From assembly GCA_949358305.1 (NCBI GenBank), contig OX442314.1:65977369-66041368 (forward strand): 64,000 nucleotides of DNA. The letters are read 5' to 3'. Of the stretch, positions 10,427-44,745 are shown piece after piece; position 1 is the first letter of the stretch; every line of letters starts with the position of its first letter. This DNA is from Strigamia acuminata. Lineage: Eukaryota; Arthropoda; Chilopoda; Geophilomorpha; Linotaeniidae. The position numbers and the translations under genes were made by a program. The notes beneath the pieces are model-generated. The model worked only from the letters and a program-made list of their open reading frames with translations, searched no databases and was not told the DNA's origin.

Positions 10427-13400
10427 TTTCTGCTAAGTCAACTGTGATGAGATCAAAAGTCTATTCTCCCAAATCATTGGTTGGATGTTTCTAAAACTTA
10501 CATTGGAGCCTTCTACTAAGGTTTAAACACTATTTCTGAACATTCAGAGACATTGGTCTTGTGGTGTTTGTGCTAAGTCAACTGTGATGAGATCAAAAGT
10601 CTATTCTCCCAAATCATTGGTTGGATGTTTCTAAAACTTACATTGGAGCCTTCTACTATGGTTTAAACACTATTTCTGAACATTCAGAGACATTGGTCTT
10701 GTGGTGTTTGTGCTAAGTCAACTGTGATTAGATCAAAAGTCTATTCTCCCAAATCATTGGTTGGATGTCTCTAAAACTTACATTGGAGCCTTCTACTAAG
10801 GTTTAAACACTATTTCTGAACATTCAGAGACATTGGTCTTGTGGTGTTTGTGCTAAGTCAACTGTGATGAGATCAAAAGTCTATTCTCCCAAATCATTGG
10901 TTGGATGTTTCTAAAATTTACATTGGAGCCTTCTACTAAGGTTTAAACACTATTTCTGAACATTCAGAGACATTGGTCTTGTGGTGTTTGTGCTAAGTCA
11001 ACTGTGATGAGATCAAAAGTCTATTCTCCTAAATCAATGGTTGAATGTTTCTAAAACTTACATTGGAGCCTTCTACTAAGGTTTAAACACTATTTCTGAA
11101 CATTCAGAGACATTGGACTTGTGGTGTTTATGCTAAGTCAACTGTGATGAGATCAAAAGTCTATTCTCCCAAATCATTGGTTAGATGTTTCTAAAACTTA
11201 CATTGGAGCCTTCTACTAAGGTTTAAACACTATTTCTGAACATTCAGAGACATTGGACTTGTGGTGTTTGTGCTAAGTCAACTGTGATGAGATCAAAAGT
11301 CTATTCTCCCAAATCATTGGTTGGATGTTTCTAAAACTTACATTGGAGCCTTCTACTAAGGTTTAAACACTATTTCTGAACATTCAGAGACATTGGTCTT
11401 GTGGCGTTTGTTCTAAGTCAACTGTGATGAGATCAAAAGTCTATTCTCCCAAATCATTGGTTGGATGTTTCTAAAACTTACATTGGAGCCTTCTACTAAG
11501 GTTTAAACACTATTTCTGAACATTCAGAGACATTGGTCTTGTGGTGTTTGTTCTAAGTCAACTGTGATGAGATCAAAAATCTATTCTCCCAAATCATTGG
11601 TTGGATGTTTCTAAAACTTACATTGGAGCCTTCTACTAAGGTTTAAACACTATTTCTGAACATTCAGAGACATTGGTCTTGTGGTGTTTGTGCTAAGTCA
11701 ACTGTGATGAGATCAAAAGTCTATTCTCCCAAATCATTGGTTGGATGTTTCTAAAACTTACATTGGAGCCTTCTACTAAGGTTTAAACACTATTTCTGAA
11801 CATTCAGAGACATTGGTCTTGTGGTGTTTGTGCTAAGTCAACTGCGATGTGAAATGAACTCAAAATTTTTTTTTCAAAATTTATTGCTTGGGTGTTGCTA
11901 AAACTTATATTGAAGGCTTCTACTAAGGTTTAAACACTATTTCTGAACATTCAGAGACATTGGACTTGTGGTGTTTGTGCTAAGTCAACTGTGATGAGAT
12001 CAAAAGTCTATTCTCCCAAATCATTGGTTGGATGTTTCTAAAACTTACATTAGAGCCTTCTACTAAGGTTTAAACACTAATTCTGAACATTCAGAGACAT
12101 TGGTCTTGTGGTGTTTGTGCTAAGTCAACTGTGATGAGATCAAAAGTCTATTCTCCCAAATCATTGGTTGGATGTTTCTAAAACTTACATTGGAGCCTTC
12201 TACTAAGGTTTAAACACTATTTCTGAACATTCAGAGACATTGGTCTTGTGGTGTTTGTGCTAAGTCAACTGTGATGAGATCAAAAGTCTATTCTCCTAAA
12301 TCAATGGTTGAATGTTTCTAAAACTTACATTGGAGCCTTCTACTAAGGTTTAAACACTATTTCTGAACATTCAGAGACATTGGACTTGTGGTGTTTCTGC
12401 TAAGTCAACTGTGATGAGATCAAAAGTCTATTCTCCCAAATCATTGGTTGGATGTTTCTAAAACTTACATTGGAGCCTTCTACTAAGGTTTAAACACTAT
12501 TTCTGAACATTCAGAGACATTGGTCTTGTGGTGTTTGTGCTAAGTCAACTGTGATGAGATCAAAAGTCTATTCTCCCAAATCATTGGTTGGATGTTTCTA
12601 AAACTTACATTGGAGCCTTCTACTAAGGTTTAAACACTATTTCTGAACATTCAGAAACATTGGTCTTGTGGTGTTTGTGCTAAGTCAACTGTGATGAGAT
12701 CAAAAGTCTATTCTCCCAAATCATTGGTTGGATGTTTCTAAAACTTACATTGGAGCCTTCTACTAAGGTGTAAACACTATTTCTGAACATTCAGAGACAT
12801 TGGTCTTGTGGTGTTTGTGCTAAGTCAACTGTGATGAGATCAAAAGTCTATTCTCCCAAATCATTGGTTGGATGTTTCTAAAACTTACATTGGAGCCTTC
12901 TACTAAGGTTTAAACACTATTTCTGAACATTCAGAGACATTGGTCTTGTGGTGTTTGTGCTAAGTCAACTGTGATGAGATCAAAAGTCTATTCTCCCAAA
13001 TCATTGGTTGGATGTTTCTAAAACTTACATTGGAGCCTTCTACTAAGGTTTAAACACTATTTCTGAACATTCAGAGACATTGGTCTTGTGGTGTTTGTGC
13101 TAAGTCAACTGTGATGAGATCAAAAGTCTATTCTCCTAAATCAATGGTTGAACGTTTCTAAAACTTACATTGGAGCCTTCTACTAAGGTTTAAACACTAT
13201 TTCTGAACATTCAGAGACATTGGACTTGTGGTGTTTGTGCTAAGTCAACTGTGATGAGATCAAAAGTCTATTCTCCCAAATCATTGGTTGGATGTTTCTA
13301 AAACTTACATTGGAGCCTTCTACTAAGGTTTAAACACTATTTCTGAACATTCAGAGACATTGGTCTTGTGGTGTTTGTGCTAAGTCAACTGTGATGAGAT

Positions 13401-16400
13401 CAAAAGTCTATTCTCCTAAATCAATGGTTGAATGTTTCTAAAACTTACATTGGAGCCTTCTACTAAGGTTTAAACACTATTTCTGAACATTCAGAGACAT
13501 TGGACTTGTGGTGTTTCTGCTAAGTCAACTGTGATGAGATCAAAAGTCTATTCTCCCAAATCATTGGTTGGATGTTTCTAAAACTTACATTGGAGCCTTC
13601 TACTAAGGTTTAAACACTATTTCTGAACATTCAGAGACATTGGTCTTGTGGTGTTTGTGCTAAGTCAACTGTGATGAGATCAAAAGTCTATTCTCCCAAA
13701 TCATTGGTTGGATGTTTCTAAAACTTACATTGGAGCCTTCTACTAAGGTTTAAACACTATTTCTGAACATTCAGAAACATTGGTCTTGTGGTGTTTGTGC
13801 TAAGTCAACTGTGATGAGATCAAAAGTCTATTCTCCCAAATCATTGGTTGGATGTTTCTAAAACTTACATTGGAGCCTTCTACTAAGGTGTAAACACTAT
13901 TTCTGAACATTCAGAGACATTGGTCTTGTGGTGTTTGTGCTAAGTCAACTGTGATGAGATCAAAAGTCTATTCTCCCAAATCATTGGTTGGATGTTTCTA
14001 AAACTTACATTGGAGCCTTCTACTAAGGTTTAAACACTATTTCTGAACATTCAGAGACATTGGTCTTGTGGTGTTTGTGCTAAGTCAACTGTGATGAGAT
14101 CAAAAGTCTATTCTCCCAAATCATTGGTTGGATGTTTCTAAAACTTACATTGGAGCCTTCTACTAAGGTTTAAACACTATTTCTGAACATTCAGAGACAT
14201 TGGTCTTGTGGTGTTTGTGCTAAGTCAACTGTGATGAGATCAAAAGTCTATTCTCCTAAATCAATGGTTGAACGTTTCTAAAACTTACATTGGAGCCTTC
14301 TACTAAGGTTTAAACACTATTTCTGAACATTCAGAGACATTGGACTTGTGGTGTTTGTGCTAAGTCAACTGTGATGAGATCAAAAGTCTATTCTCCCAAA
14401 TCATTGGTTGGATGTTTCTAAAACTTACATTGGAGCCTTCTACTAAGGTTTAAACACTATTTCTGAACATTCAGAGACATTGGACTTGTGGTGTTTGTGC
14501 TAAGTCAACTGTGATGAGATCAAAAGTCTATTCTCCCAAATCATTGGTTGGATGTTTCTAAACCTTACATTGGAGCCTTCTACTAAGGTTTAAACACTAT
14601 TTCTGAACATTCAGAGACATTGGTGTTTGTGCTAAGTCAACTGCGATCTGAAATGAGCTCAAAATTTTTTTTTCAAAATTTATTGCTTGGGTGTTGCTAA
14701 AACTTACATTTAAGGCTTCTACAAAGGTTTAAACACTATTTATAAACATTCAGACACATTGGACTTGTGGTGTTTGTGCTAAGTCAACTGTGATGAGATC
14801 AAAAGTCTATTCTCCCAAATCATTGGTTGGATGTTTCTAAAACTTACATTGGAGCCTTCTACTAAGGTTTAAACACTATTTCTGAACATTCAGAGACATT
14901 GGTCTTGTGGTGTTTGTGCTAAGTCAACTGTGATGAGATCAAAAGTCTATTCTCCTAAATCAATGGTTGAATGTTTCTAAAACTTACATTGGAGCCTTCT
15001 ACTAAGGTTTAAACACTATTTCTGAACATTCAGAGACATTGGACTTGTGGTGTTTGTGCTAAGTCAACTGTGATGAGATCAAAAGTCTATTCTCCCAAAT
15101 CATTGGTTGGATGTTTCTAAAACTTACATTGGAGCCTTCTACTAAGGTTTAAACACTATTTCTGAACATTCAGAGACATTGGACTTGTGGTGTTTGTGCT
15201 AAGTCAACTGTGATGAGATCAAAAGTCTATTCTCCCAAATCATTGGTTGGATGTTTCTAAAACTTACATTGGAGCCTTCTACTAAGGTTTAAACACTATT
15301 TCTGAACATTCAGAGACATTGGTCTTGTGGCGTTTGTTCTAAGTCAACTGTGATGAGATCAAAAGTCTATTCTCCCAAATCATTGGTTGGATGTTTCTAA
15401 AACTTACATTGGAGCCTTCTACTAAGGTTTAAACACTATTTCTGAACATTCAGAGACATTGGTCTTGTGGTGTTTGTTCTAAGTCAACTGTGATGAGATC
15501 AAAAGTCTATTCTCCCAAATCATTGGTTGGATGTTTCTAAAACTTACATTGGAGCCTTCTACTAAGGTTTAAACACTATTTCTGAACATTCAGAGACATT
15601 GGTCTTGTGGTGTTTGTGCTAAGTCAACTGTGATGAGATCAAAAGTCTATTCTCCCAAATCATTGGTTGGATGTTTCTAAAACTTACATTGGAGCCTTCT
15701 ACTAAGGTTTAAACACTATTTCTGAACATTCAGAGACATTGGTCTTGTGGTGTTTGTGCTAAGTCAACTGCGATGTGAAATGAACTCAAAATTTTTTTTT
15801 CAAAATTTATTGCTTGGGTGTTGCTAAAACTTATATTGAAGGCTTCTACTAAGGTTTAAACACTATTTCTGAACATTCAGAGACATTGGACTTGTGGTGT
15901 TTGTGCTAAGTCAACTGTGATGAGATCAAAAGTCTATTCTCCCAAATCATTGGTTGGATGTTTCTAAAACTTACATTAGAGCCTTCTACTAAGGTTTAAA
16001 CACTAATTCTGAACATTCAGAGACATTGGTCTTGTGGTGTTTGTGCTAAGTCAACTGTGATGAGATCAAAAGTCTATTCTCCCAAATCATTGGTTGGATG
16101 TTTCTAAAACTTACATTGGAGCCTTCTACTAAGGTTTAAACACTATTTCTGAACATTCAGAGACATTGGATTGTGGTGTTTGTGCTAAGTCAACTGTGAT
16201 GAGATCAAAAGTCTATTCTCCTAAATCAATGGTTGAATGTTTCTAAAACTTACATTGGAGCCTTCTACTAAGGTTTAAACACTATTTCTGAACATTCAGA
16301 GACATTGGACTTGTGGTGTTTCTGCTAAGTCAACTGTGATGAGATCAAAAGTCTATTCTCCCAAATCATTGGTTGGATGTTTCTAAAACTTACATTGGAG

Positions 16401-17350
16401 CCTTCTACTAAGGTTTAAACACTATTTCTGAACATTCAGAGACATTGGTCTTGTGGTGTTTGTGCTAAGTCAACTGTGATGAGATCAAAAGTCTATTCTC
16501 CCAAATCATTGGTTGGATGTTTCTAAAACTTACATTGGAGCCTTCTACTAAGGTTTAAACACTATTTCTGAACATTCAGAGACATTGGTCTTGTGGTGTT
16601 TGTGCTAAGTCAACTGTGATGAGATCAAAAGTCTATTCTCCCAAATCATTGGTTGGATGTTTCTAAAACTTACATTGGAGCCTTCTACTAAGGTTTAAAC
16701 ACTATTTCTGAACATTCAGAGACATTGGTCTTGTGGTGTTTGTGCTAAGTCAACTGTGATGAGATCAAAAGTCTATTCTCCTAAATCAATGGTTGAATGT
16801 TTCTAAAACTTACATTGGAGCCTTCTACTAAGGTTTAAACACTATTTCTGAACATTCAGAGACATTGGACTTGTGGTGTTTGTGCTAAGTCAACTGTGAT
16901 GAGATCAAAAGTCTATTCTCCCAAATCATTGGTTGGATGTTTGTAAAACTTACATTGGAGCCTTCTACTAAGGTTTAAACACTATTTCTGAACATTCAGA
17001 GACATTGGACTTGTGGTGTTTGTGCTAAGTCAACTGTGATGAGATCAAAAGTCTATTCTCCCAAATCATTGGTTGGATGTTTCTAAAACTTACATTGGAG
17101 CCTTCTACTAAGGTTTAAACACTATTTCTGAACATTCAGAGACATTGGTGTTTGTGCTAAGTCAACTGCGATCTGAAATGAGCTCAAAATTTTTTTTTCA
17201 AAATTTATTGCTTGGGTGTTGCTAAAACTTACATTTAAGGCTTCTACAAAGGTTTAAACACTATTTATAAACATTCAGACACATTGGACTTGTGGTGTTT
17301 GTGCTAAGTCAACTGTGATGAGATCAAAAGTCTATTCTCCCAAATCATTG
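10427..17350. repeat. 140-bp satellite, array 1 (about 49 monomers)
   Basis: Head-to-tail monomers of exactly 140 bp (for example, GCTAAGTCAACTG recurs at 140-base steps from 10572). Most are over 95% alike. Two common forms differ at TCCCAAATCATTGGTTGGATG against TCCTAAATCAATGGTTGAATG. Divergent 147-bp monomers begin near 11842, 14641, 15768 and 17166. Larger periods are superimposed: 1120 bp (8 monomers) across about 12100-14480, and a block repeated 3926 bp away (28 units; B1 monomers at 11842 and 15768). No open frame or gene is present. Confidence 0.98.
12100..14480. repeat. 8-monomer (1120-bp) tandem duplication inside array 1
   Basis: Diagnostic single-base variants repeat at an offset of exactly 1120: GTTTCTGCTAAG near 12393/13513, TTCAGAAACATTGG near 12650/13770, AAGGTGTAAACAC near 12765/13885 and GAACGTTTC near 13149/14269. 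Confidence 0.9.
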
Positions 17351-18708
17351 TGTTTCTGGCAAGGTCGCAGGCGACAACCAGGCCAGAAGGAGGGGCGGCA
17401 ATACTTGACTGCTGCTTGGCTAAAATTGATACACAGAAGTTGGCCAAAGACTTGAAGAAATGCAAACACTGGACTTGAACTTGCTGCTTCACATGATGAT
17501 CTGCCACTGGTGAGTTCAAGGAGGAGGAAGGAGGATTTTTCTACTCACTGCACATTGCTTTCTGGTTGTATAGAGAAATGAGACTTGGAGAGAAATAAAA
17601 AGCAACCATTTTATTCTCTAAATTCTTAACAAGACTACTACAATTGAATCACGAGGATATTACAAAGAAGTCACACTTTAACAATAATAAGAAACAACAA
17701 GTGTAACTATCTCCACATTGTATAAGGACACTTGCACTTAAAGTTACAGAGGTCTCTAAGTGCTTGTAAAGAGAAATAAGTACTGCTGGCACAACAAAAC
17801 TACCGTAGAAGTTAATAGTTGAAAACACATAAGCCTAACAGCAAGTATTTGACATTAAATGCAAAAGTATACATTAACAACAGTCTCTAACCACAATGCT
17901 CGTTGAGAACTAAATTATTCACTCTAAAACACACTGAACAACTCATAAAATAGAGAAAAGAATAAGTAAAGACATTTTAGACCAATGAGCTGGCAACTTT
18001 ACAGTAAGTGCAGAAGTTAAGTTATAAATCAACACAGATAAATCTTAAACTTAACACTTTTACATTGCATAATAATTAAGTGATTAATTATTAATCAGAA
18101 CCCACAAAAACTCTTTGGGATTAAACATTTTCTCCTCTCTTTACAGATACAAGTAGACCACTCCCACAGTAATGGCCGACAATGTAAACAGAGATCACTT
18201 GCAGGAAGATAGAAAGGCTTGAAATTAGCTCACTAGACAGGCTACACACAATCTAAGTTAACAAAACGCTTAATTGGTTAGTAATATACAGAAAACAAAC
18301 AGAAATTGATTGAAACAGCTTAAAACTGATAATAACATACATTTCTCATTCTAGTACCCTTTTGCTGTCTGAGAGCATCATTACACCTTGTCACTACATT
18401 GACAATAGTGGACTGGAAACAGGAAAACACTTGGAAACATCAAAACATGCATAACACAGGTAAACAAGATAGAAAATAAATTCTAAGTGGATAAATAACT
18501 AATGTAAAAACTCTTTTCTTCCCAGATTTATCCGGTCAGATCAACCAGTACTGAGAAATTCACTCAAACTAACTCAAAGAAGACTTATATTCAAATAAGT
18601 GTCTAATTAAATTCCCAATCTAAGATAAATATTAAAAACCCTTTTTAATAATTCCAGATGACTAATTTTTAAGACGTTTAGCAGCTTTCCTTTATGTTGC
18701 TAGCAACA
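17351..18708 (-). repeat. 3' LTR of the thymidine-kinase element (1358 bp)
   Basis: In element sense it begins TGTTGCTAGCAACA, a perfect 14-base palindrome, and ends GCCAGAAACA. It reads the same as 22582-23939 along its length by eye. Small frames inside it are not supported as genes. Unlike the other LTRs here it has no AAGATGGCG motif. Confidence 0.95.
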
Positions 18709-18743
18709 TAGATTGCCGGCGAAAAGAAAGTGCGAACAACCCA
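18709..18743 (-). other. Pre-LTR motif of the thymidine-kinase element
   Basis: Only 35 bases separate the stop codon from the 3' LTR. In element sense they end with a pyrimidine-rich CTTTCTTTT and CGCCGGCAATCTA directly before TGTTGC, matching the layout in families A and Y. No adjacent polypurine tract is present. Confidence 0.5.
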
Positions 18744-21700
18744 TCATTTAGTTCGATTACTTCTGGTCTTTGATGATAATATTTGGGAGACCTCTTTCAC
18801 CTTTTCGTATTCCACTCTGGGTGGCATGATTCTTTGACGGATCAAATTTGGTATCCACGGAGGTATTCTTCGGTTGACAATCATACAACTAAGTCGAATA
18901 ATTCCGTTGATGATTTTCCTTTTCGTCTCTAGGGACTTCATGGGCTTTGAGAAACATACTCGACAGGTTGGTTTGTATTTGTCGATCCCTCCTATCATCT
19001 TGACTCGGGTTTCGTGCGAAATTCGTCTTGAAAATTCAGCTTTATCTCCGCAAAAATAACATTTTGCTTGTAGTTTCACAACAGACTCGGCTAGTGGAAC
19101 TAACTCGGATATCTGATCAAATGGCTTCCTCTTGAAGTCGACGTCTAATGCGGCGACTATTACCTTTTTCTTTTGCTCAGCCATTTCATTTGAAAAAGTA
19201 AAAATGTCGGGAAAAAACTGTCCTTCGTCAATTCCGATTGTCTTCACTAATTTCGTTTTTTCCACAGCATTGGTTAGGCTACTGGTCGCGATTGCTTCTC
19301 GTCGATGACCGTCGTGGGTCACGACTTCGGTTTTACTGTAACGATCGTCATTGGAGTGTTTAATTAGCAGGGACGACGTCTTCTCTTCCTTTTCTAAAAG
19401 CTTCAATAACTTGGTCGTTTTCCCCGCATACATTGGACCAATGATGAGATGAATTCCCTTTTGATTGGTTGACAAATCAATTTTCTTTTTCCAGAAATTC
19501 AGAATCACGTTTCCACTCCATCTCACGATTGCACACAATTTGGGTAAACTGGGCACTTGGTTTGTAAGTAATTCGACGTTCTTTCTCCCTGACTCTAACT
19601 GATTTCGCCCTCGTAATTCCGGCTTCATGTCCGAGCTTGGAGTTCTGTTGACCAATCCTCCATCCTTGAACGACTTTTTCGTTTTTTGGAGGGTGGTGTC
19701 CAGTTCCTCTTTCTCCAGACCACTGGAGAGGCTCGCGGCAAAACAAGAAGGTGTGACGTCTGTCTGTTTATTCACACCGGGTTCGCCATTCATGTTGGGC
19801 AGTGATTTCGGAATTAATTGGACTATTTTGTTTTCGTCATTTTCAGGTTGATTTGAGATCACTTCTTCTTTGGACTCGACCGCCATGCAAGAAATGTTGC
19901 ACGCTGCCATGTTTTCTTCAAGCGGGTTGTTTGGTTTCAGTCGACCGTTTAGAATCCACCCAAAAATTGTCTCCATTAATCCCAACTCGTCGTTGATTTT
20001 TCGGCTTCCACCTTGACAAATCTTCCACCATGCGTTGCTTCCTAATAAGACGTCAATGTCTTCCGATTCTGACGGATGTATCTCAGCCATCTCAAGTCCG
20101 AGTGATTGGACTTGCTTTATGGCTTCTGCTCCAATTATCCCTTTGACTTTCGGGAGTGTGTCGGTTTCTAATGCAAGGATTGATGTCTTTTTTGTTCCGT
20201 GTCTTGATTGTAGTTCGAATCTAAAGACATCATGTGTCGTCGGAACTGGCTTTTTGTTGAGCAGACACTGTGTCATCGTGTGTAGTGTCTCGATCTTTTG
20301 CATCCGGAATTTATTTACTAGTCTCTTCGTGACGTAGGAGCGATGGCTTCCTGGATCTAGTAATCCGCGGACGGGGTACATGTCTCCATTTTTCTTCACA
20401 AAAAGAGCAGTGAAGACCATCAGTTGAATCTCCACCGACTCGGTAAGCGATACATTAGTAGACACGTTTTCTTCTTTTGGTGTAATCGCTTTTTCTTTGT
20501 TGTTTTTGTTGCAGATCGATGTGTGATGTCTTCCACCACACAAGCGACAACAAAACTTCACGGTACATTCTTTGGCTGTGTGGTTATATCTCAAGCAGTT
20601 GAAACAAAGTCGTTTCTTCTTCACTATTTCGATCCTCGCTGGTACATCGAGATCCGCATCACAATTTGCGTGTGCGTGATCACCATCACAATAAGCGCAG
20701 GCGGGTTTGCGGTTTGGATTTGACTTGGAATTCATACTCAATTTTCCATTCTCGGAAGTCACGAATGAGGACATGGTTCCAGTTGGTCTTTCTCTTGTTT
20801 CCTTTGAAGTTTTCTCAAATTTTTCTGACTTCTTCAGATGAGCGCGCTTAAGGAGAACGCTTTCTTCCGACAATTCAGCCAGTTGTATCTCGGTTGCTAC
20901 GAAGTCCAGAAAAACGTTAACATCATCAACTTTTCCTTGATGCTTTCGGTAAAAACGTTGGGAGATCTCCGGTGGAAATTTTCTAAGTAGTTCTGGAATA
21001 AGGTACGTTCCAGTAGTGTCAACTGACACAGACAGTTGCGCCATGGTCCGGACAGCAGATGCCAATGACGTGAATAGAGCTTTGAGTGGCTCGATTGGGT
21101 AGAGATCGAAAACGGGTTTCGACTCCCTAATCATCTTTGAAATAGCATTTCTCTGCGTGTTTTCAGAACCGAATAGACTCTCCAATGTGTTTTTCGCTAA
21201 TGGGTAGGCGTCATCAGTTATTGGGTACGACTTGATTGCGGATTCTGCAGCCCCAGTGCAGCATGACCTCAGATATATAAGCTTTTCCACGTTCGAAAGC
21301 TCCGTGTTCTGATCAACTGCTGATTCGAATAAATTCGCAAAACCTCTATATTCAGTTGCATCGCCACTAAATTTGGCAATGTCGGTTTTCGGCAATCTCG
21401 TGTTTCTCCTAGATGAAGCGGACGTCTGGTTTAAACTGGAATTCTGTCCCGGATGGGAACCAAATTGCCCTGCCATTTTTCCAGACACTTTTGCTCTTTG
21501 CTTCAATAAATTTACTCTGGTTCTAATGTCTTCAATTCGTTGAAGCCCCGCTAAATAGTCCTCTCTTTTTGACTCGTCTTTAAGAGCTTTCAATTCGTCG
21601 GCGAGATCACTCAATTGCTGGTCAACCGTTATTTGCATGGCTTCCAGCTCTCCTCCGTCTAGAATGTTGACTGAAGATCCCAGCAGATCCTCGGCTCCTT

Positions 21701-21761
21701 GAGCCTTTGCTTTCCAAATGACCTCCTTTTCCTCGAGATCAGCAGCGGATAATGTAGCCAT
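18744..21761 (-). CDS. BEL/Pao Gag-protease fused in frame to TK1-type thymidine kinase (1005 aa)
   Basis: The start is the ATG at 21761 (context ATTATGGCT). Order: N-terminal helical region similar to Gag of element A (ELEAMQ ... LKQRAKV); DUF1759-type Gag domain about 121-214 (LPKTDIAKFSGD); three CCHC-like zinc knuckles about 353-415; aspartic-protease-like region with LDPGSHRSY near 467 and GWILNG near 605; a linker of about 160 residues without recognisable domain; then a thymidine kinase about 770-945. Kinase marks: P-loop GPMYAGKTT at about 775, lasso-type segment DDRYSKTEVVTHDGHRREA, catalytic Glu in IDEGQFFPDI near 845, VPLAESVVKLQAKC, zinc cysteines CYFC and CRVC, and GGIDKYKP. All key residues of the TK1 (type II) family are present. 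That family phosphorylates thymidine to dTMP with ATP. A 60-residue tail follows. RT, RNase H and integrase are absent. Whether the kinase is released by proteolysis or packaged in Gag particles is inference. Confidence 0.95.
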   Translation of the reverse strand: MATLSAADLEEKEVIWKAKAQGAEDLLGSSVNILDGGELEAMQITVDQQLSDLADELKALKDESKREDYLAGLQRIEDIRTRVNLLKQRAKVSGKMAGQFGSHPGQNSSLNQTSASSRRNTRLPKTDIAKFSGDATEYRGFANLFESAVDQNTELSNVEKLIYLRSCCTGAAESAIKSYPITDDAYPLAKNTLESLFGSENTQRNAISKMIRESKPVFDLYPIEPLKALFTSLASAVRTMAQLSVSVDTTGTYLIPELLRKFPPEISQRFYRKHQGKVDDVNVFLDFVATEIQLAELSEESVLLKRAHLKKSEKFEKTSKETRERPTGTMSSFVTSENGKLSMNSKSNPNRKPACAYCDGDHAHANCDADLDVPARIEIVKKKRLCFNCLRYNHTAKECTVKFCCRLCGGRHHTSICNKNNKEKAITPKEENVSTNVSLTESVEIQLMVFTALFVKKNGDMYPVRGLLDPGSHRSYVTKRLVNKFRMQKIETLHTMTQCLLNKKPVPTTHDVFRFELQSRHGTKKTSILALETDTLPKVKGIIGAEAIKQVQSLGLEMAEIHPSESEDIDVLLGSNAWWKICQGGSRKINDELGLMETIFGWILNGRLKPNNPLEENMAACNISCMAVESKEEVISNQPENDENKIVQLIPKSLPNMNGEPGVNKQTDVTPSCFAASLSSGLEKEELDTTLQKTKKSFKDGGLVNRTPSSDMKPELRGRNQLESGRKNVELLTNQVPSLPKLCAIVRWSGNVILNFWKKKIDLSTNQKGIHLIIGPMYAGKTTKLLKLLEKEEKTSSLLIKHSNDDRYSKTEVVTHDGHRREAIATSSLTNAVEKTKLVKTIGIDEGQFFPDIFTFSNEMAEQKKKVIVAALDVDFKRKPFDQISELVPLAESVVKLQAKCYFCGDKAEFSRRISHETRVKMIGGIDKYKPTCRVCFSKPMKSLETKRKIINGIIRLSCMIVNRRIPPWIPNLIRQRIMPPRVEYEKVKEVSQILSSKTRSNRTK

Positions 21762-22581
21762 AATCCTCACCGAGAAATGAAGAATTCAAGGATCAGTTCA
21801 GGACTCAAACTCAACTTAACTGACTAAATTGGTTAACAAGAAATTGTCTAATTCTTTTACACTCTAGGATTTACTGAACACACAAAAGCAGGATGGATAT
21901 CCACAAGCTGTTAACAGGATTGAAACACACGGGATGTTAACAGGATTGGCAAATTAACCCCCAAAATTCAATAATTAAAGGTAATTGACAATTCTCTTAT
22001 TTTCACAATTGAGTTTCTGACTAGATACTCGTTTTAAATTGGGATACCAACACTAAAGCTTGGTATTATTCACTAATTCACTGGATATTCTCTAAATTCC
22101 ACAAACTGGAATCGAGAATTTATTCAAACTGTTAAGACTTAAACTTCTTCTCCCCCCAACTACACCAGTTTCTAATCAAAAACTCCTTTGAAATGATTAC
22201 AGCAGCAAATTCGGATATTATTCTATTTAAATAATAATTCTTAATAATTATTTCTTCAAATCTTCTTGTAGGATGTACATTGCGTTGTGTTTGGAATTGA
22301 TTGTCGTGCAGGATCGCTCGTACTCTCGAAGCCTTGCTTGATCCAAGTTGAAAAACATCTTGACCATCTTGACAATTTGAGAATCCAACTTGAAAAACCC
22401 ACTTTTTTGCCTGTGAAAGGCGGACGAGAGCATACACTTCACTGTAGTGGCACAACTTCAATGGCACTTTACACATAAAAGCTTTGCACAGCTTGAGAAC
22501 AAAACCCACTGATGAATTTTGCAGCACACATGAAGGTCCACTGAGATAACTGGAAGAAATCCTTGGTTCACGGTACCAAAT
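21762..22581 (-). other. 5' leader of the thymidine-kinase element
   Basis: About 820 bases between 5' LTR and Gag start, AT-rich, with no convincing frame (a 166-codon frame at 22132-22632 crosses into the LTR and resembles nothing I know). It begins with the primer-binding site. It should also hold any packaging signal, but none is recognisable by eye. Confidence 0.7.
22556..22578 (-). promoter_or_regulatory. Primer-binding site of the thymidine-kinase element
   Basis: In element sense, 3 bases after the 5' LTR, TGGTACCGTGAACC then AAGGATTTC. TGG pairs with the tRNA CCA end. The first 11 bases are the same as in element A and one base different from those of X. A tRNA-His-like acceptor stem (complement TGGTGCCGTGA) fits best, with one mismatch. 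Confidence 0.65.
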
Positions 22582-23939
22582 TGTTTCTGGCAAGGTCGCA
22601 GGCGACAACCAGGCCAGAAGGAGGGGCGGCAATACTTGACTGCTGCTTGGCTAAAATTGATACACAGAAGTTGGCCAAAGACTTGAAGAAATGCAAACAC
22701 TGGACTTGAACTTGCTGCTTCACATGATGATCTGCCACTGGTGAGTTCAAGGAGGAGGAAGGAGGATTTTTCTACTCACTGCACATTGCTTTCTGGTTGT
22801 ATAGAGAAATGAGACTTGGAGAGAAATAAAAAGCAACCATTTTATTCTCTAAATTCTTAACAAGACTACTACAATTGAATCACGAGGATATTACAAAGAA
22901 GTCACACTTTAACAATAATAAGAAACAACAAGTGTAACTATCTCCACATTGTATAAGGACACTTGCACTTAAAGTTACAGAGGTCTCTAAGTGCTTGTAA
23001 AGAGAAATAAGTACTGCTGGCACAACAAAACTACCGTAGAAGTTAATAGTTGAAAACACATAAGCCTAACAGCAAGTATTTGACATTAAATGCAAAAGTA
23101 TACATTAACAACAGTCTCTAACCACAATGCTCGTTGAGAACTAAATTATTCACTCTAAAACACACTGAACAACTCATAAAATAGAGAAAAGAATAAGTAA
23201 AGACATTTTAGACCAATGAGCTGGCAACTTTACAGTAAGTGCAGAAGTTAAGTTATAAATCAACACAGATAAATCTTAAACTTAACACTTTTACATTGCA
23301 TAATAATTAAGTGATTAATTATTAATCAGAACCCACAAAAACTCTTTGGGATTAAACATTTTCTCCTCTCTTTACAGATACAAGTAGACCACTCCCACAG
23401 TAATGGCCGACAATGTAAACAGAGATCACTTGCAGGAAGATAGAAAGGCTTGAAATTAGCTCACTAGACAGGCTACACACAATCTAAGTTAACAAAACGC
23501 TTAATTGGTTAGTAATATACAGAAAACAAACAGAAATTGATTGAAACAGCTTAAAACTGATAATAACATACATTTCTCATTCTAGTACCCTTTTGCTGTC
23601 TGAGAGCATCATTACACCTTGTCACTACATTGACAATAGTGGACTGGAAACAGGAAAACACTTGGAAACATCAAAACATGCATAACACAGGTAAACAAGA
23701 TAGAAAATAAATTCTAAGTGGATAAATAACTAATGTAAAAACTCTTTTCTTCCCAGATTTATCCGGTCAGATCAACCAGTACTGAGAAATTCACTCAAAC
23801 TAACTCAAAGAAGACTTATATTCAAATAAGTGTCTAATTAAATTCCCAATCTAAGATAAATATTAAAAACCCTTTTTAATAATTCCAGATGACTAATTTT
23901 TAAGACGTTTAGCAGCTTTCCTTTATGTTGCTAGCAACA
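22582..23939 (-). repeat. 5' LTR of the thymidine-kinase element (1358 bp)
   Basis: Same length and apparently same sequence as 17351-18708. The right edge GCAACA is followed by ATTG and by satellite in the phase expected from the left flank. Confidence 0.95.
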
Positions 23940-24374
23940 ATTGGTTGGATGTTTCTAAAACTTACATTGGAGCCTTCTACTAAGGTTTAAACACTATTTC
24001 TGAACATTCAGAGACATTGGTCTTGTGGTGTTTGTGCTAAGTCAACTGTGATGAGATCAAAAGTCTATTCTCCTAAATCAATGGTTGAATGTTTCTAAAA
24101 CTTACATTGGAGCCTTCTACTAAGGTTTAAACACTATTTCTGAACATTCAGAGACATTGGTCTTGTGGTGTTTGTGCTAAGTCAACTGTGATGAGATCAA
24201 AAGTCTATTCTCCCAAATCATTGGTTGGATGTTTCTAAAACTTACATTGGAGCCTTCTACTAAGGTTTAAACACTATTTCTGAACATTCAGAGACATTGG
24301 TCTTGTGGTGTTTGTGCTAAGTCAACTGTGATTAGATCAAAAGTCTATTCTCCCAAATCATTGGTTGGATGTCT

Positions 24375-27300
24375 CTAAAACTTACATTGGAGCCTTCTAC
24401 TAAGGTTTAAACACTATTTCTGAACATTCAGAGACATTGGTCTTGTGGTGTTTGTGCTAAGTCAACTGTGATGAGATCAAAAGTCTATTCTCCCAAATCA
24501 TTGGTTGGATGTTTCTAAAATTTACATTGGAGCCTTCTACTAAGGTTTAAACACTATTTCTGAACATTCAGAGACATTGGTCTTGTGGTGTTTGTGCTAA
24601 GTCAACTGTGATGAGATCAAAAGTCTATTCTCCTAAATCAATGGTTGAATGTTTCTAAAACTTACATTGGAGCCTTCTACTAAGGTTTAAACACTATTTC
24701 TGAACATTCAGAGACATTGGACTTGTGGTGTTTGTGCTAAGTCAACTGTGATGAGATCAAAAGTCTATTCTCCCAAATCATTGGTTGGATGTTTCTAAAA
24801 CTTACATTGGAGCCTTCTACTAAGGTTTAAACACTATTTCTGAACATTCAGAGACATTGGACTTGTGGTGTTTGTGCTAAGTCAACTGTGATGAGATCAA
24901 AAGTCTATTCTCCCAAATCATTGGTTGGATGTTTCTAAAACTTACATTGGAGCCTTCTACTAAGGTTTAAACACTAATTCTGAACATTCAGAGACATTGG
25001 TCTTGTGGTGTTTGTGCTAAGTCAACTGTGATTAGATCAAAAGTCTATTCTCCCAAATCATTGGTTGGATGTTTCTAAAACTTACATTGGAGCCTTCTAC
25101 TAAGGTTTAAACACTATTTCTGAACATTCAGAGACATTGGTCTTGTGGTGTTTGTTCTAAGTCAACTGTGATGAGATCAAAAGTCTATTCTCCCAAATCA
25201 TTGGTTGGATGTTTCTAAAACTTACATTGGAGCTTTCTACTAAGGTTTAAACACTAATTCTGAACATTCAGAGACATTGGTCTTGTAGTGTTTGTGCTAA
25301 GTCAACTGTGATGAGATCAAAAGTCTATTCTCCCAAATCATTGGTTGGATGTTTCTAAAACTTACATTGGAGCCTTCTACTAAGGTTTAAACACTAATTC
25401 TGAACATTCAGAGACATTGGTCTTGTGGTGTTTGTGCTAAGTCAACTGTGATTAGATCAAAAGTCTATTCTCCTAAATCATTGGTTGAATGTTTCTAAAA
25501 CTTACATTGGAGCCTTCTACTAAGGTTTAAACACTATTTCTGAACATTCAGAGACATTGGTCTTGTGGTGTTTGTTCTAAGTCAACTGTGATGAGATCAA
25601 AAGTCTATTCTCCCAAATCATTGGTTGGATGTTTCTAAAACTTACATTGGAGCTTTCTACTAAGGTTTAAACACTAATTCTGAACATTCAGAGACATTGG
25701 TCTTGTGGTGTTTGTGCTAAGTCAACTGTGATGAGATCAAAAGTCTATTCTCTTAAATCATTGGTTGAATGTTTCTAAAACTTACATTGGAGCCTTCTAC
25801 TAAGGTTTAAACACTATTTCTGAACATTCAGAGACATTGGACTTGTGGTGTTTGTGCTAAGTCAACTGTGATGAGATCAAAAGTCTATTCTCCCAAATCA
25901 TTGGTTGGATGTTTCTAAAACTTACATTGGAGCCTTCTACTAAGGTTTAAACACTAATTCTGAACATTCAGAGACATTGGTCTTGTGGTGTTTGTGCTAA
26001 GTCAACTGTGATTAGATCAAAAGTCTATTCTCCCAAATCATTGGTTGGATGTTTCTAAAACTTACATTGGAGCCTTCTACTAAGGTTTAAACACTATTTC
26101 TGAACATTCAGAGACATTGGTCTTGTGGTGTTTGTTCTAAGTCAACTGTGATGAGATCAAAAGTCTATTCTCCCAAATCATTGGTTGGATGTTTCTAAAA
26201 CTTACATTGGAGCTTTCTACTAAGGTTTAAACACTAATTCTGAACATTCAGAGACATTGGTCTTGTGGTGTTTGTGCTAAGTCAACTGTGATGAGATCAA
26301 AAGTCTATTCTCCCAAATCATTGGTTGGATGTTTCTAAAACTTACATTGGAGCCTTCTACTAAGGTTTAAACACTATTTCTGAACATTCAGAGACATTGG
26401 TCTTGTGGTGTTTGTGCTAAGTCAACTGTGATGAGATCAAAAGTCTATTCTCCCAAATCATTGGTTGGATGTTTCTAAAATTTACATTGGAGCCTTCTAC
26501 TAAGGTTTAAACACTATTTCTGAACATTCAGAGACATTGGTCTTGTGGTGTTTGTGCTAAGTCAACTGTGATGAGATCAAAAGTCTATTCTCCTAAATCA
26601 ATGGTTGAATGTTTCTAAAACTTACATTGGAGCCTTCTACTAAGGTTTAAACACTATTTCTGAACATTCAGAGACATTGGACTTGTGGTGTTTGTGCTAA
26701 GTCAACTGTGATGAGATCAAAAGTCTATTCTCCCAAATCATTGGTTGGATGTTTCTAAAACTTACATTGGAGCCTTCTACTAAGGTTTAAACACTATTTC
26801 TGAACATTCAGAGACATTGGACTTGTGGTGTTTGTGCTAAGTCAACTGTGATGAGATCAAAAGTCTATTCTCCCAAATCATTGGTTGGATGTTTCTAAAA
26901 CTTACATTGGAGCCTTCTACTAAGGTTTAAACACTAATTCTGAACATTCAGAGACATTGGTCTTGTGGTGTTTGTGCTAAGTCAACTGTGATTAGATCAA
27001 AAGTCTATTCTCCCAAATCATTGGTTGGATGTTTCTAAAACTTACATTGGAGCCTTCTACTAAGGTTTAAACACTATTTCTGAACATTCAGAGACATTGG
27101 TCTTGTGGTGTTTGTTCTAAGTCAACTGTGATGAGATCAAAAGTCTATTCTCCCAAATCATTGGTTGGATGTTTCTAAAACTTACATTGGAGCTTTCTAC
27201 TAAGGTTTAAACACTAATTCTGAACATTCAGAGACATTGGTCTTGTAGTGTTTGTGCTAAGTCAACTGTGATGAGATCAAAAGTCTATTCTCCCAAATCA

Positions 27301-28330
27301 TTGGTTGGATGTTTCTAAAACTTACATTGGAGCCTTCTACTAAGGTTTAAACACTAATTCTGAACATTCAGAGACATTGGTCTTGTGGTGTTTGTGCTAA
27401 GTCAACTGTGATTAGATCAAAAGTCTATTCTCCTAAATCATTGGTTGAATGTTTCTAAAACTTACATTGGAGCCTTCTACTAAGGTTTAAACACTATTTC
27501 TGAACATTCAGAGACATTGGTCTTGTGGTGTTTGTTCTAAGTCAACTGTGATGAGATCAAAAGTCTATTCTCCCAAATCATTGGTTGGATGTTTCTAAAA
27601 CTTACATTGGAGCTTTCTACTAAGGTTTAAACACTAATTCTGAACATTCAGAGACATTGGTCTTGTGGTGTTTGTGCTAAGTCAACTGTGATGAGATCAA
27701 AAGTCTATTCTCTTAAATCATTGGTTGAATGTTTCTAAAACTTACATTGGAGCCTTCTACTAAGGTTTAAACACTATTTCTGAACATTCAGAGACATTGG
27801 ACTTGTGGTGTTTGTGCTAAGTCAACTGTGATGAGATCAAAAGTCTATTCTCCCAAATCATTGGTTGGATGTTTCTAAAACTTACATTGGAGCCTTCTAC
27901 TAAGGTTTAAACACTAATTCTGAACATTCAGAGACATTGGTCTTGTGGTGTTTGTGCTAAGTCAACTGTGATTAGATCAAAAGTCTATTCTCCCAAATCA
28001 TTGGTTGGATGTTTCTAAAACTTACATTGGAGCCTTCTACTAAGGTTTAAACACTATTTCTGAACATTCAGAGACATTGGTCTTGTGGTGTTTGTTCTAA
28101 GTCAACTGTGATGAGATCAAAAGTCTATTCTCCCAAATCATTGGTTGGATGTTTCTAAAACTTACATTGGAGCTTTCTACTAAGGTTTAAACACTAATTC
28201 TGAACATTCAGAGACATTGGTCTTGTGGTGTTTGTGCTAAGTCAACTGTGATGAGATCAAAAGTCTATTCTCCCAAATCATTGGTTGGATGTTTCTAAAA
28301 CTTACATTGGAGCCTTCTACTAAGGTTTAA
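24375..28330. repeat. 14-monomer (1960-bp) tandem duplication inside array 2
   Basis: Rare variants recur exactly 1960 bases apart: AAAATTTACATTGG at about 24517/26477, TCTTGTAGTGTTTG at 25281/27241 and TCTCTTAAATC near 25750/27710. Confidence 0.9.
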
Positions 28331-28805
28331 ACACTAATTCTGAACATTCAGAGACATTGGTCTTGTGGTGTTTGTGCTAAGTCAACTGTGATTAGATCAA
28401 AAGTCTATTCTCCTAAATCATTGGTTGAATGTTTCTAAAACTTACATTGGAGCCTTCTACTAAGGTTTAAACACTATTTCTGAACATTCAGAGACATTGG
28501 TCTTGTGGTGTTTGTTCTAAGTCAACTGTGATGAGATCAAAAGTCTATTCTCCCAAATCATTGGTTGGATGTTTCTAAAACTTACATTGGAGCTTTCTAC
28601 TAAGGTTTAAACACTAATTCTGAACATTCAGAGACATTGGTCTTGTGGTGTTTGTGCTAAGTCAACTGTGATGAGATCAAAAGTCTATTCTCTTAAATCA
28701 TTGGTTGAATGTTTCTAAAACTTACATTGGAGCCTTCTACTAAGGTTTAAACACTATTTTTGAACATTCAGAGACATTGGTCTTGTGGTGTTTGTGCTAA
28801 GTCAA

Positions 28806-31800
28806 CTGCAATGTGAAATGAACTCAAAATTTTTTTTTCAAAATTTATTGCTTGGGTGTTGCTAAAACTTATATTGAAGGCTTCTACTAAGGTTTAAACA
28901 CTATTTCTGAACATTCAGAGACATTGGACTTGTGGTGTTTGTGCTAAGTCAACTGTGATGAGATCAAAAGTCTATTCTCCCAAATCATTAATTGGATGTT
29001 TCTAAAACTTACATTGGAGCCTTCTACTAAGGTTTAAACACTATTTCTGAACATTCAGAGACATTGGTCTTGTGGTGTTTGTGCTAAGTCAACTGTGATT
29101 AGATCAAAAGTCTATTCTCCCAAATCATTGGTTGGATGTTTCTAAAACTTACATTGGAGCCTTCTACTAAGGTTTAAACACTATTTCTGAACATTCAGAG
29201 ACATTGGTCTTGTGGTGTTTGTGCTAAGTCAACTGTGATGAGATCAAAAGTCTATTCTCCCAAATCATTGGTTGGATGTTTCTAAAATTTACATTGGAGC
29301 CTTCTACTAAGGTTTAAACACTATTTCTGAACATTCAGAGACATTGGTCTTGTGGTGTTTGTGCTAAGTCAACTGTGATGAGATCAAAAGTCTATTCTCC
29401 TAAATCAATGGTTGAATGTTTCTAAAACTTACATTGGAGCCTTCTACTAAGGTTTAAACACTATTTCTGAACATTCAGAGACATTGGACTTGTGGTGTTT
29501 ATGCTAAGTCAACTGTGATGAGATCAAAAGTCTATTCTCCCAAATCATTGGTTAGATGTTTCTAAAACTTACATTGGAGATTTCTACTAAGGTTTAAACA
29601 CTATTTCTGAACATTCAGAGACATTGGACTTGTGGTGTTTGTGCTAAGTCAACTGTGATGAGATCAAAAGTCTATTCTCCCAAATCATTGGTTGGATGTT
29701 TCTAAAACTTACATTGGAGCCTTCTACTAAGGTTTAAACACTATTTCTGAACATTCAGAGACATTGGTCTTGTGGCGTTTGTTCTAAGTCAACTGTGATG
29801 AGATCAAAAGTCTATTCTCCCAAATCATTGGTTGGATGTTTCTAAAACTTACATTGGAGCCTTCTACTAAGGTTTAAACACTATTTCTGAACATTCAGAG
29901 ACATTGGTCTTGTGATGTTTGTTCTAAGTCAACTGTGATGAGATCAAAAATCTACTCTCCCAAATCATTGGTTGGATGTTTCTAAAACTTACATTGGAGC
30001 CTTCTACTAAGGTTTAAACACTATTTCTGAACATTCAGAGACATTGGTCTTGTGGTGTTTGTGCTAAGTCAACTGTGATGAGATCAAAAGTCTATTCTCC
30101 CAAATCATTGGTTGGATGTTTCTAAAACTTACATTGGAGCCTTCTACTAAGGTTTAAACACTATTTCTGAACATTCAGAGACATTGGTCTTGTGGTGTTT
30201 GTGCTAAGTCAACTGCGATGTGAAATGAACTCAAAATTTTTTTTTCAAAATTTATTGCTTGGGTGTTGCTAAAACTTATATTGAAGGCTTCTACTAAGGT
30301 TTAAACACTATTTCTGAACATTCAGAGACATTGGACTTGTGGTGTTTGTGCTAAGTCAACTGTGATGAGATCAAAAGTCTATTCTCCCAAATCATTGGTT
30401 GGATGTTTCTAAAACTTACATTAGAGCCTTCTACTAAGGTTTAAACACTAATTCTGAACATTCAGAGACATTGGTCTTGTGGTGTTTGTGCTAAGTCAAC
30501 TGTGATGAGATCAAAAGTCTATTCTCTTAAATCATTGGTTGAATGTTTCTAAAACTTACATTGGAGCCTTCTACTAAGGTTTAAACACTATTTCTGAACA
30601 TTCAGAGACATTGGTCTTGTGGTGTTTGTGCTAAGTCAACTGTGATGAGATCAAAAGTCTATTCTCCTAAATCAATGGTTGAATGTTTCTAAAACTTACA
30701 TTGGAGCCTTCTACTAAGGTTTAAACACTATTTCTGAACATTCAGAGACATTGGACTTGTGGTGTTTATGCTAAGTCAACTGTGATGAGATCAAAAGTCT
30801 ATTCTCCCAAATCATTGGTTAGATGTTTCTAAAACTTACATTGGAGATTTCTACTAAGGTTTAAACACTATTTCTGAACATTCAGAGACATTGGACTTGT
30901 GGTGTTTGTGCTAAGTCAACTGTGATGAGATCAAAAGTCTATTCTCCCAAATCATTGGTTGGATGTTTCTAAAACTTACATTGGAGCCTTCTACTAAGGT
31001 TTAAACACTATTTCTGAACATTCAGAGACATTGGTCTTGTGGCGTTTGTTCTAAGTCAACTGTGATGAGATCAAAAGTCTATTCTCCCAAATCATTGGTT
31101 GGATGTTTCTAAAACTTACATTGGAGCCTTCTACTAAGGTTTAAACACTATTTCTGAACATTCAGAGACATTGGTCTTGTGGTGTTTGTTCTAAGTCAAC
31201 TGTGATGAGATCAAAAATCTACTCTCCCAAATCATTGGTTGGATGTTTCTAAAACTTACATTGGAGCCTTCTACTAAGGTTTAAACACTATTTCTGAACA
31301 TTCAGAGACATTGGTCTTGTGGTGTTTGTGCTAAGTCAACTGTGATGAGATCAAAAGTCTATTCTCCCAAATCATTGGTTGGATGTTTCTAAAACTTACA
31401 TTGGAGCCTTCTACTAAGGTTTAAACACTATTTCTGAACATTCAGAGACATTGGTCTTGTGGTGTTTGTGCTAAGTCAACTGCGATGTGAAATGAACTCA
31501 AAATTTTTTTTTCAAAATTTATTGCTTGGGTGTTGCTAAAACTTATATTGAAGGCTTCTACTAAGGTTTAAACACTATTTCTGAACATTCAGAGACATTG
31601 GACTTGTGGTGTTTGTGCTAAGTCAACTGTGATGAGATCAAAAGTCTATTCTCCCAAATCATTGGTTGGATGTTTCTAAAACTTACATTAGAGCCTTCTA
31701 CTAAGGTTTAAACACTAATTCTGAACATTCAGAGACATTGGTCTTGTGGTGTTTGTGCTAAGTCAACTGTGATGAGATCAAAAGTCTATTCTCTTAAATC

Positions 31801-32000
31801 ATTGGTTGAATGTTTCTAAAACTTACATTGGAGCCTTCTACTAAGGTTTAAACACTATTTCTGAACATTCAGAGACATTGGTCTTGTGGTGTTTGTTCTA
31901 AGTCAACTGTGATGAGATCAAAAGTCTATTCTCCCAAATCATTGGTTGGATGTTTCTAAAACTTACATTGGAGCTTTCTACTAAGGTTTAAACACTAATT
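28806..32000. repeat. 9- to 10-unit higher-order repeats (1407 and 1267 bp)
   Basis: 147-bp variant monomers are spaced 1407 then 1267 bases. Rare variants such as GTTTATGCTAAG and TTGGAGATTTCTAC (about 29572 and 30839) recur 1267 apart. The block starting at 28806, including its ATTAATTGGATG variant, is found again at 34357. Confidence 0.85.
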
Positions 32001-32167
32001 CTGAACATTCAGAGACATTGGTCTTGTGGTGTTTGTGCTAAGTCAACTGTGATGAGATCAAAAGTCTATTCTCCCAAATCATTGGTTGGATGTTTCTAAA
32101 ACTTACATTGGAGCCTTCTACTAAGGTTTAAACACTAATTCTGAACATTCAGAGACATTGGTCTTGT

Positions 32168-43191: not shown

Positions 43192-44745
43192 TGTAGCAAA
43201 CAACCTTGGCTCTCACAAGGAATACTGGCGAATTGGTCTGTAAACTCTGGAGACCGCCCGAGACTGTATAGTGGTTGATGAAACAAGTTGACCTCTCAGC
43301 CCAAACTCTAGGCCTAACTGCATCATGAGAAATCAGGCCTAACTGCATTCAGTTGAAAATGATAAAGGAAGCTCTCTGGATACTGGGGAAAACCTTGTGC
43401 CTCCAGTGAGGAGGAGAGCATGCAAAGCTTTCTACTCACTCATTTGCATATTTCCCTGAGTAGGAAATAAGATCAGAAAAGAATGTTCAAAGCAGGAGTG
43501 AAAACACATCAACTTTTTAATCTTAACAACAAGTAACAACTGATTGCTTCTTTAGCAACCACACAACAACTGGTCACCTGCTTACAATAAATATCAGTGA
43601 CCAAACAATACAGATTTGCATAATAACAATAGTGCCAACAAGGTTTCCGTATTCCTACAACAGATGTCAAACTTAACATAAGTAAAGGCAAAACTTAACC
43701 TAACACCTTGATAACATTATGACCTGTGCAAACAGCACTTCACTTAAACTTAACAGATAATTCAAAGGCTAAAACTAACATTAATTACACTCAAAACACA
43801 ATGCTTAGCCCAAACCCAATCACCACCAACAGAGGGCGCAACGTGTCACAGTTTTAACCCCTTTACAACCATGCAATAACAAAGGTAAAGGCTTAGATTA
43901 ATAACTCTTAATATTGGTAATTTATACAAACAATAACTAGTATATATTCCCTATGTCCAGGTTTCATTAAAACCCCAAACTAAATAATAACAGGGCACCA
44001 GTGCAGCACCAAATCCAAGATGGCGACCATGCAACTGCTAAAATGACGTGAATGGAGCCAAACAAGGTCGCAAGCGACTCACAGGCCTTCTCAACGATGG
44101 ATCTGCGTCCTAGAACGGTCAGTACAACTTTCCCAGTGCTTGGACATTGAAACCCGACCAATTCAACTCATTTGCAGGACCCACACGACCACGAGAGGCG
44201 TCGCAAGGCGTGCGCTCACGCCCGACGCTCCCGAACGCTCACAAACGATGTCCAACGTTCATCCAGCGACCCAGGACACCTGGGGAGTTCCTTAAACACC
44301 AATACAAGTTAGTATAAATTAAATCACAAGCAAAACAAGCACTAAAACTGCAATTGTGCTTATTTCAGGTTCTTCCCGTCTCCCAGTTCACTTGCGCTAT
44401 GGCGGCCATCTTGCCGGTGCACGACTATCTCCCTCGCAAGTGAACTGGAAACGGGAGAGAACTTACAAATACTAGAAACAACACCTAAAAGTGAAAAAGA
44501 CACATAAAACAATTACAAAAGACTAAAAACACAACTTTCAAACATTCCAGGTGTGGCAGGCGAAGTGGCAACCCCCTTGAACTTCCAGGATCGTGTCAAC
44601 AAAGCAGCAAACCAACTGGACATGTCAGATATGTGTTAAAAATCTATTCAAACTTGACAACAAAATTAAAAAAGCCTTTTCTTCCTTTCAGAAGATAAAC
44701 AACGTGAAATCTCCAGATCTTTTTGTTGCGTTCTTGCTCGCAACA
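43192..44745 (-). repeat. 3' LTR of element A (1554 bp)
   Basis: In element sense TGTTGCGAGC ... TTTGCTACA, with the TGTTGCG-8-CGCAACA terminal inverted repeat. Matches 50752-52305 by eye throughout. YY1-like motifs at 44015-44030 and 44396-44415. Confidence 0.97.
44015..44030 (+). promoter_or_regulatory. YY1-like motif in element A LTR
   Basis: CCAAGATGGCGACCAT, with ATGG cores on both strands. A second, palindromic site (ATGGCGGCCATCTTGCC) is at about 44399-44415. Both recur in the 5' LTR 7560 bases to the right. Confidence 0.35.

Follow-up and report, generated by a model that had tools for sequence, protein, structure and literature searches.

Can a retrotransposon that has lost its polymerase profit from a gene for making DNA building blocks? 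The question is raised by a stretch of 64,000 nucleotides from the chilopod Strigamia acuminata (contig C1, positions 65977369-66041368; hereafter the window). At window positions 17351-23939 it contains a complete long terminal repeat (LTR) element in which a TK1-type thymidine kinase is fused to Gag. We are virtually certain of its description as a BEL/Pao-derived LTR unit with one Gag/protease-like/TK1 frame and without a polymerase, and in this the initial annotation, made from the sequence of the window, was confirmed.

A Gag-kinase frame between two identical LTRs

The element lies on the minus strand, so that its 5' LTR is the one at 22582-23939 (the sole correction that the initial annotation needed) and its 3' LTR the one at 17351-18708. 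The two LTRs match at 1358 of 1358 bases, end in TG...CA and are bordered by a 4-bp target duplication, ATTG, at 17347-17350 on the left and 23940-23943 on the right. The insertion interrupts a 140-bp satellite array that runs from 10427 to 17350 and resumes at 23940-32167. Adjoining the 5' LTR on its inner side is a putative primer-binding site, TGGTACCGTGAACCAAGG (22561-22578, minus strand); the primer-site-like stretch 3' of this LTR and ahead of the open frame is TGGTACCGTGAACC. At the place expected of a polypurine tract, before the 3' LTR, stands the motif TTTTCGCCGGCAATCT (18710-18725, minus strand). The internal region holds a stop-free frame of 1008 amino acids (18744-21770, minus strand), counted from a mechanical GTG start, with the first ATG at 21761. 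It runs from Gag to kinase as the one uninterrupted frame described initially, and the distance of 35 bases from its stop to the LTR was likewise borne out.

In order, the frame encodes a DUF1759 Gag domain (residues 134-275, 20946-21371; Pfam E 2e-17), a weak CCHC zinc-knuckle-like motif (residues 388-403, 20562-20609; E 0.15, under the Pfam cut-off), a protease-homologous region with the motif DPGS (residues 472-475, 20346-20357), a variable linker, the TK1-type kinase domain PF00265 (residues 773-940, 18951-19454; E 2.6e-54) and a C-terminal tail (18747-18950), all on the minus strand. Pfam families of reverse transcriptase (RT), RNase H and integrase had no match in the frame at E up to 1, in agreement with their reported absence, and the element is therefore a non-autonomous BEL-derived element and not an autonomous BEL/Pao one. 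The protease region of the window copy had no Pfam match, and a sister family of elements matched Asp_protease_2 at E 7.6e-4, under the cut-off. Homology to an RT-bearing BEL/Pao element of the same window suggests a protease-like region: the two frames are 37% identical over residues 29-625, and the aligned DPGS motif is common to both, within LLDPGS/MLDPGS.

The kinase domain has the P-loop GPMYAGKTT, the motifs DEGQFF and IGGxDKY, and four cysteines (CxxC...CxxC); the intact P-loop, catalytic Glu motif, lasso-type segment and zinc cysteines of the initial annotation were thus all found. In an alignment of 41 thymidine kinases, the window's included, the P-loop, DEGQFF and the four zinc cysteine columns are invariant or almost so. 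Two entries for human TK1 were matched, 2wvj at E 7.8e-43 and 1xbt at E 2.1e-42. An AlphaFold model built with 41 sequences had a mean predicted local distance difference test score (pLDDT) of 83 and aligned to 1xbt with a template modelling (TM) score of 0.95 by target length and 0.58 by query length, the latter being low because of the flanks around the kinase. Among the Gag-kinase copies fetched, 15 distinct ones have an unbroken kinase, some of them with a shortened Gag frame, and every one keeps the P-loop, DEGQFF, the IGG/VGG-Y segment and the four cysteines; a sixteenth, L025, is broken inside the kinase. The kinase is, on these residues, quite probably active, and their conservation points to thymidine phosphorylation as the activity retained.

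The fold might instead have been kept for a role in the particle that does not concern nucleotides, for example in forming tetramers or, by way of its basic flanks and conserved tail, in binding RNA or membranes. Fusion of the kinase to Gag fits such a role, as does the tail, of which 22 of the first 44 residues are common to both families of Gag-kinase elements and for which AlphaFold predicts helices, at a confidence that is low near its end. (In the single RT-bearing element compared, the tail was not found; the best chance match had E 0.15.) We nevertheless consider this explanation rather improbable, since P-loop, DEGQFF and zinc cysteines are kept in all 15 unbroken kinases and since, to judge by its variable linker, the frame is not merely frozen throughout.

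Recent transposition and purifying selection

Searches covered 157 contigs with 237,517,015 bp. The report on the assembly, qcStrAcum1.1, gives 98-fold PacBio HiFi coverage and 158 scaffolds of 237,534,282 bp in total (PMC10556566). With PF00265, the best 150 of 205 candidates were scored, all above the cut-off, and 84 of these 150 kinase matches sit in full Gag-kinase frames of 995-1013 amino acids. Families were assigned from the length of the open frame, guided by examples whose sequence was fetched, most copies being known from their coordinates and frame length. On this basis the scored matches divide into two Gag-kinase families, Gag-TK1, to which the window's element belongs (51), and Gag-TK2 (41), and three further kinds of kinase locus, c190 (40), c216 (13) and c221 (5). 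Union with further kinase searches gave 169 places: 51, 43, 57, 13 and 5, respectively. The two Gag-kinase families are 51% alike, and their 94 places are spread over eight placed chromosomes (1, 3, 4, 5, 6, 7, 9 and the putative Y) and unplaced contigs. The putative Y (C13) holds 19 of the 94, at 7.9-10.3 Mb, and the putative X (C12) none. On chromosome 1, all 11 Gag-kinase places are at 64 Mb or beyond, as against none of the 70 listed Peptidase_A17 matches there, a contrast that is biased, as it draws on the best 150 of 1068 A17 candidates and as A17 elements do occur in this region, within the window.

The other parts of the element gave a matching picture. With the window's Gag as query, 51 of the 59 matches scored (the best 59 of 1309 candidates) had 96-100% identity, 47 of these 51 with a full Gag-kinase frame; the remaining eight, at 55-56%, all belong to the second Gag-kinase family. 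With the LTR, the best 40 of 122 candidates were all 99-100% identical, and 34 of them form 17 pairs spaced 5219-5233 bases apart. The 16-base motif beside the 3' LTR, TTTTCGSCGGCAATCT, had 96 exact matches in the genome and 109 with at most one mismatch, compared to 4 for the reversed control; 88 of the 96 have a Gag-TK kinase no more than 1.2 kb away, and 6 of the 94 Gag-kinase places lack the motif.

LTRs were 100% identical inside each of the five elements in which both were paired (the window's, L009, L010, L011 and L027); for L024 and L025 no LTR pair was seen within the stretch examined. Perfect target duplications of 4-5 bp flanked 15 of 15 elements checked, namely these five and ten more, with LTR ends set at TG...CA; in L010 and L027, the repeat as computed runs 1-3 bases past the CA at which the LTR end was placed. 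Among the ten further copies, satellite flanks four on both sides and one on one side, and the copy on C21 shares the flanks of the window's element, so that the two may go back to a single insertion that was later duplicated. L024 comprises two Gag-kinase fragments about 5.3 kb apart that are 99.7% identical over 1488 bases, with kinases 90-91% identical to the window's. Together, these data show that the element has recently transposed. They also supply, in number and with target duplications at many sites, the copies with both LTRs and kinase on which the initial annotation had made its reading depend; two families and further kinase-bearing multicopy units had not been foreseen. Erroneous joining of Gag to a kinase gene during assembly, named at the outset as an outcome that would undo the reading, has nothing in its favour among these results and is hardly conceivable in view of a HiFi assembly (PMC10556566), 84 full-length frames, 17 LTR pairs and target duplications at 15 of 15 elements.

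We compared the rates of nonsynonymous and synonymous substitution (dN/dS) among copies. By the NG86 method, nine within-family kinase pairs with dS above 0 gave ratios of 0.08-0.19: 0.15 for window-L011 and L011-L024a, 0.19 for window-L024a, 0.17 for L009-L010 and L010-L027, 0.10 for L009-L002, and 0.08 for L009 with each of L003, L004 and L005. Gag gave 0.05-0.10 (NG86, three pairs), whereas the linker gave 0.49-0.62 (NG86, three pairs) or 0.53-0.74 (YN00); between the families dS was saturated. Thus, the kinase codons are under purifying selection and the linker is much less so, and the neutral drift that the initial annotation had set against a function was not seen.

These ratios bear on the possibility that the kinase is a passenger, a processed copy that an LTR element picked up and multiplied although it served no purpose. 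LTR elements are generally known to capture cellular sequence, and near-identical copies within a family mean that recent amplification alone explains most intact frames. However, a passenger would have decayed, and the kinase is open in two families that are 57% identical at saturated dS; moreover, the pair L002-L009 keeps its ratio of 0.10 (YN00 0.14) at a dS of about 1.0. A passenger pseudogene was rejected on dN/dS, and we regard this reading as very improbable.

One kinase clade, several kinds of repeat

We next consider where the kinase came from. An ordinary TK1 gene of the host, interrupted by six introns, lies within C9:8317700-8319700 on the minus strand. Its identity is 65-73% to the 13 other thymidine kinases of the set that match it best, the named ones being from animals. 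To the mobile kinases as a whole it is 42-47%, and to those of the LTR elements 44-45%. The main tree had 47 rows; most unnamed trichomonad-like rows, three long-branch rows and two near-duplicates were omitted, and the tree holds no viral thymidine kinase. In it the 11 mobile kinase rows form one clade (99/96) within which the two Gag-kinase families are a clade of their own (100/97), and host TK1 groups with mollusc TK1s outside the mobile clade (93/91). Three unnamed proteins stood next to the mobile clade in a first tree of 70 rows, a placement that was gone in the tree of 47. As a candidate for the direct parent, host TK1 stands apart from the mobile clade in the tree, yet a clade of host plus mobile kinases was not rejected (approximately unbiased test, p 0.225). 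The initial suggestion of a captured kinase is therefore supported: the intron-bearing host gene is distinct and the element kinases are a separate clade, but descent from the host line is compatible with the test. The gene may have come from this host in the distant past, from another animal or from a virus.

Between the two Gag-kinase families, Gag is 58.5% and the kinase 57.1% identical. This equal divergence, together with the Gag-kinase clade (100/97), argues for one uptake before the families split; two separate captures were unsupported on the same grounds.

Three more kinds of intronless kinase are multicopy in this genome: c190 (57 places; fetched as L021, L023, L026 and L028), c216 (13; L014-L020 and L022) and c221 (5; L012 and L013). 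Their members placed in the tree fall in one clade with the element kinases. In the long repeats around them no Gag was recognised; Pfam found only the kinase above cut-off in the open reading frames chosen, Rfam found nothing at seven loci, and the ends of the units were not found. Within c190, the alignment of L023 with L028 extends for about 9.9 kb at 98% identity, and L021 and L026 align piecewise; c216 and c190 have stretches in common beyond the kinase. L022, a c216 copy, has an altered P-loop. From these repeats, kinases of this clade seem to have spread beyond the Gag-kinase elements.

Such a spread invites another reading, in which the kinase acts on another substrate or at another level: it would let the element or the germ cell use external deoxyuridine or thymidine, or it would be a spreading gene that is retained for some other reason and for which the LTR element is one vehicle among several. 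Three multicopy, intronless kinds from the same clade with no Gag seen speak for this, as does the dN/dS of 0.12 between the c190 and c216 kinases. On the other hand, the Gag-kinase families are monophyletic and their kinase has diverged in step with Gag, which ties it to the LTR element, and no feature indicating movement was seen in the c190 and c216 repeats. We judge this reading unlikely, if somewhat less so than the non-nucleotide role.

The kinase was also considered as a part of Maverick/Polinton elements, which found no support: for 46 of the 169 kinase places, none of 79 places with a polymerase B of that type was closer than 28 kb, the other 123 being compared by eye. In their own right, a large part of these 79 DNA polymerase B places are stop-free frames of about 1340 amino acids, and Maverick/Polinton-type elements have likely been active recently.

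Probable mobilization in trans, a possible role in thymidine supply, and known systems

Without RT or integrase the element must be moved in trans, and we hold mobilization in trans to be highly probable. RT-bearing BEL elements are plentiful, with at least 150 Peptidase_A17 matches (the best 150 of 1068 candidates), and three are in the window, one of them cut off by the window's end. The element compared above (43194-52305, minus strand; frame 44798-50107, 1769 amino acids) has LTRs 100% identical over 1552 bases, and its Gag is 37-38% identical to that of the kinase element; the primer-site core TGGTACCGTGA is common to the kinase element and this one RT-bearing element compared. It is complete, likewise lies between 140-bp satellite arrays and is of the type that the kinase element would require as a helper. 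A second BEL/Pao pol, in two frames, occupies 60888-63995, with its Gag beyond the window; at the 3' end of this pol, CGCCGGCAAT stands directly ahead of TGTTGC and is close to the motif of the Gag-kinase elements.

Overall, we lean towards an element of Gag plus kinase that is mobilized in trans and whose kinase phosphorylates thymidine, to the benefit of reverse transcription. The lineage ancestral to both families would have acquired one intronless kinase and retained it since. The element would assemble its own Gag particles, and autonomous BEL elements would supply RT, RNase H and integrase. The kinase would convert thymidine to its monophosphate (dTMP), from which host kinases would make the triphosphate (dTTP), raising both in cells with low host TK1. 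Being in one frame with Gag, it would be made in step with Gag and be plentiful where the element's RNA is reverse-transcribed. Both Gag and kinase seem to contribute to the element's spread, since it has kept a Gag of its own and a kinase that is constrained. That the benefit runs through dTTP we consider an even call.

Several points weigh against this reading. One kinase yields only dTMP, and the later steps require host enzymes; the host's own TK1 puts the need for a second one in question; and related kinases occur in multicopy units without a recognisable Gag, so that a kinase may be retained for reasons other than reverse transcription. As to selection, kinase dN/dS by YN00 is higher, at 0.14-0.36 where computable, the nine pairs, which overlap, are separated by 8-101 base differences, and six pairs (L024a-L024b, and L009 with L027, L001, L006, L007 and L008, L001 being the same copy as L009) have a dS of 0 with 0-2 base differences and yield no ratio. 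The identification of the protease is weak. Finally, the best 40 of 122 LTR and the best 59 of 1309 Gag candidates included no RT-bearing element that matches in its LTRs or has a similar Gag; other BEL Gag pieces compared were about 25-40% identical, or 43-49% over one piece of 53 residues (L047). A wider scenario can be offered only tentatively: a retrotransposon lineage may have dropped its polymerase to parasitise BEL elements, its Gag-fused kinase feeding reverse transcription, with the captured kinase a cargo of several unrelated multicopy units, selfish elements that would compete over the thymidine supply.

Two further observations concern other sequences. At 216-4289 the window holds the frame of a Copia-type element (1357 amino acids), and the same protein sequence occurs at the start of L065. 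The mitochondrial contig, C157 (15,068 bp; L041), has cox1, cox2 and cox3 consecutively and, by eye, a probable 12S rRNA divergent from cox1.

The element resembles BEL/Pao elements in its TG...CA LTRs, DUF1759 Gag, CCHC-like motif, LDPGS motif, 4-5 bp target duplications and primer-site core, and differs from them in having TK1 in place of RT, RNase H and integrase. With cellular TK1, or type II thymidine kinases, it shares fold, P-loop, DEGQFF and zinc cysteines; in contrast to these, its kinase is intronless, fused to Gag, and different in its C-terminal tail; its identity with the host's TK1 (C9) is 44-45%. Large DNA viruses, whose thymidine kinases were among the fold matches, are likewise selfish genomes with a thymidine kinase of their own, but they are DNA viruses. 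No named retroelement kinase was among the best 50 fold matches listed. In a protein database no Gag-kinase fusion was found by Pfam annotation, among four matches to the kinase query (long proteins only) and seven to the whole frame (7992 candidates scored), and a literature search, made without most subscription journals and preprints, found no thymidine kinase in an LTR retrotransposon.

Limitation of retroelements by deoxynucleoside triphosphate (dNTP) supply is an open question, argued mainly from host restriction and from dUTPase genes. Elements of the BARE-2 and TR-GAG types are non-autonomous LTR elements that retain gag only; like the kinase element, they have their own Gag, lack a polymerase and must be mobilized in trans; to our knowledge they carry no extra enzyme, whereas the kinase element adds a constrained nucleoside kinase. 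Fungal Gypsy LTR elements with dUTPase (PMC2864245) are retroelements with a nucleotide enzyme whose use was proposed to lie in non-dividing cells. There the dUTPase is within or beside Pol (PMC2864245), while here the enzyme is TK1 and Pol is gone. A gain in dTTP for reverse transcription would be in line with that proposal (PMC2864245).

The element has kept a gene for DNA precursors under purifying selection through the split into two families while the polymerase was lost, which suggests that a selfish element gains from making DNA building blocks. With it, the limitation of reverse transcription by dNTPs can be put to the test in an animal. It also illustrates how a non-autonomous element can come to carry a metabolic gene, and its dozens of open copies offer a naturally occurring fusion of Gag with an enzyme. 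Its nearest published precedent that we found is the dUTPase-bearing LTR elements and its nearest architecture that of the gag-only non-autonomous elements, and this comparison suggests that the combination of the two is new.

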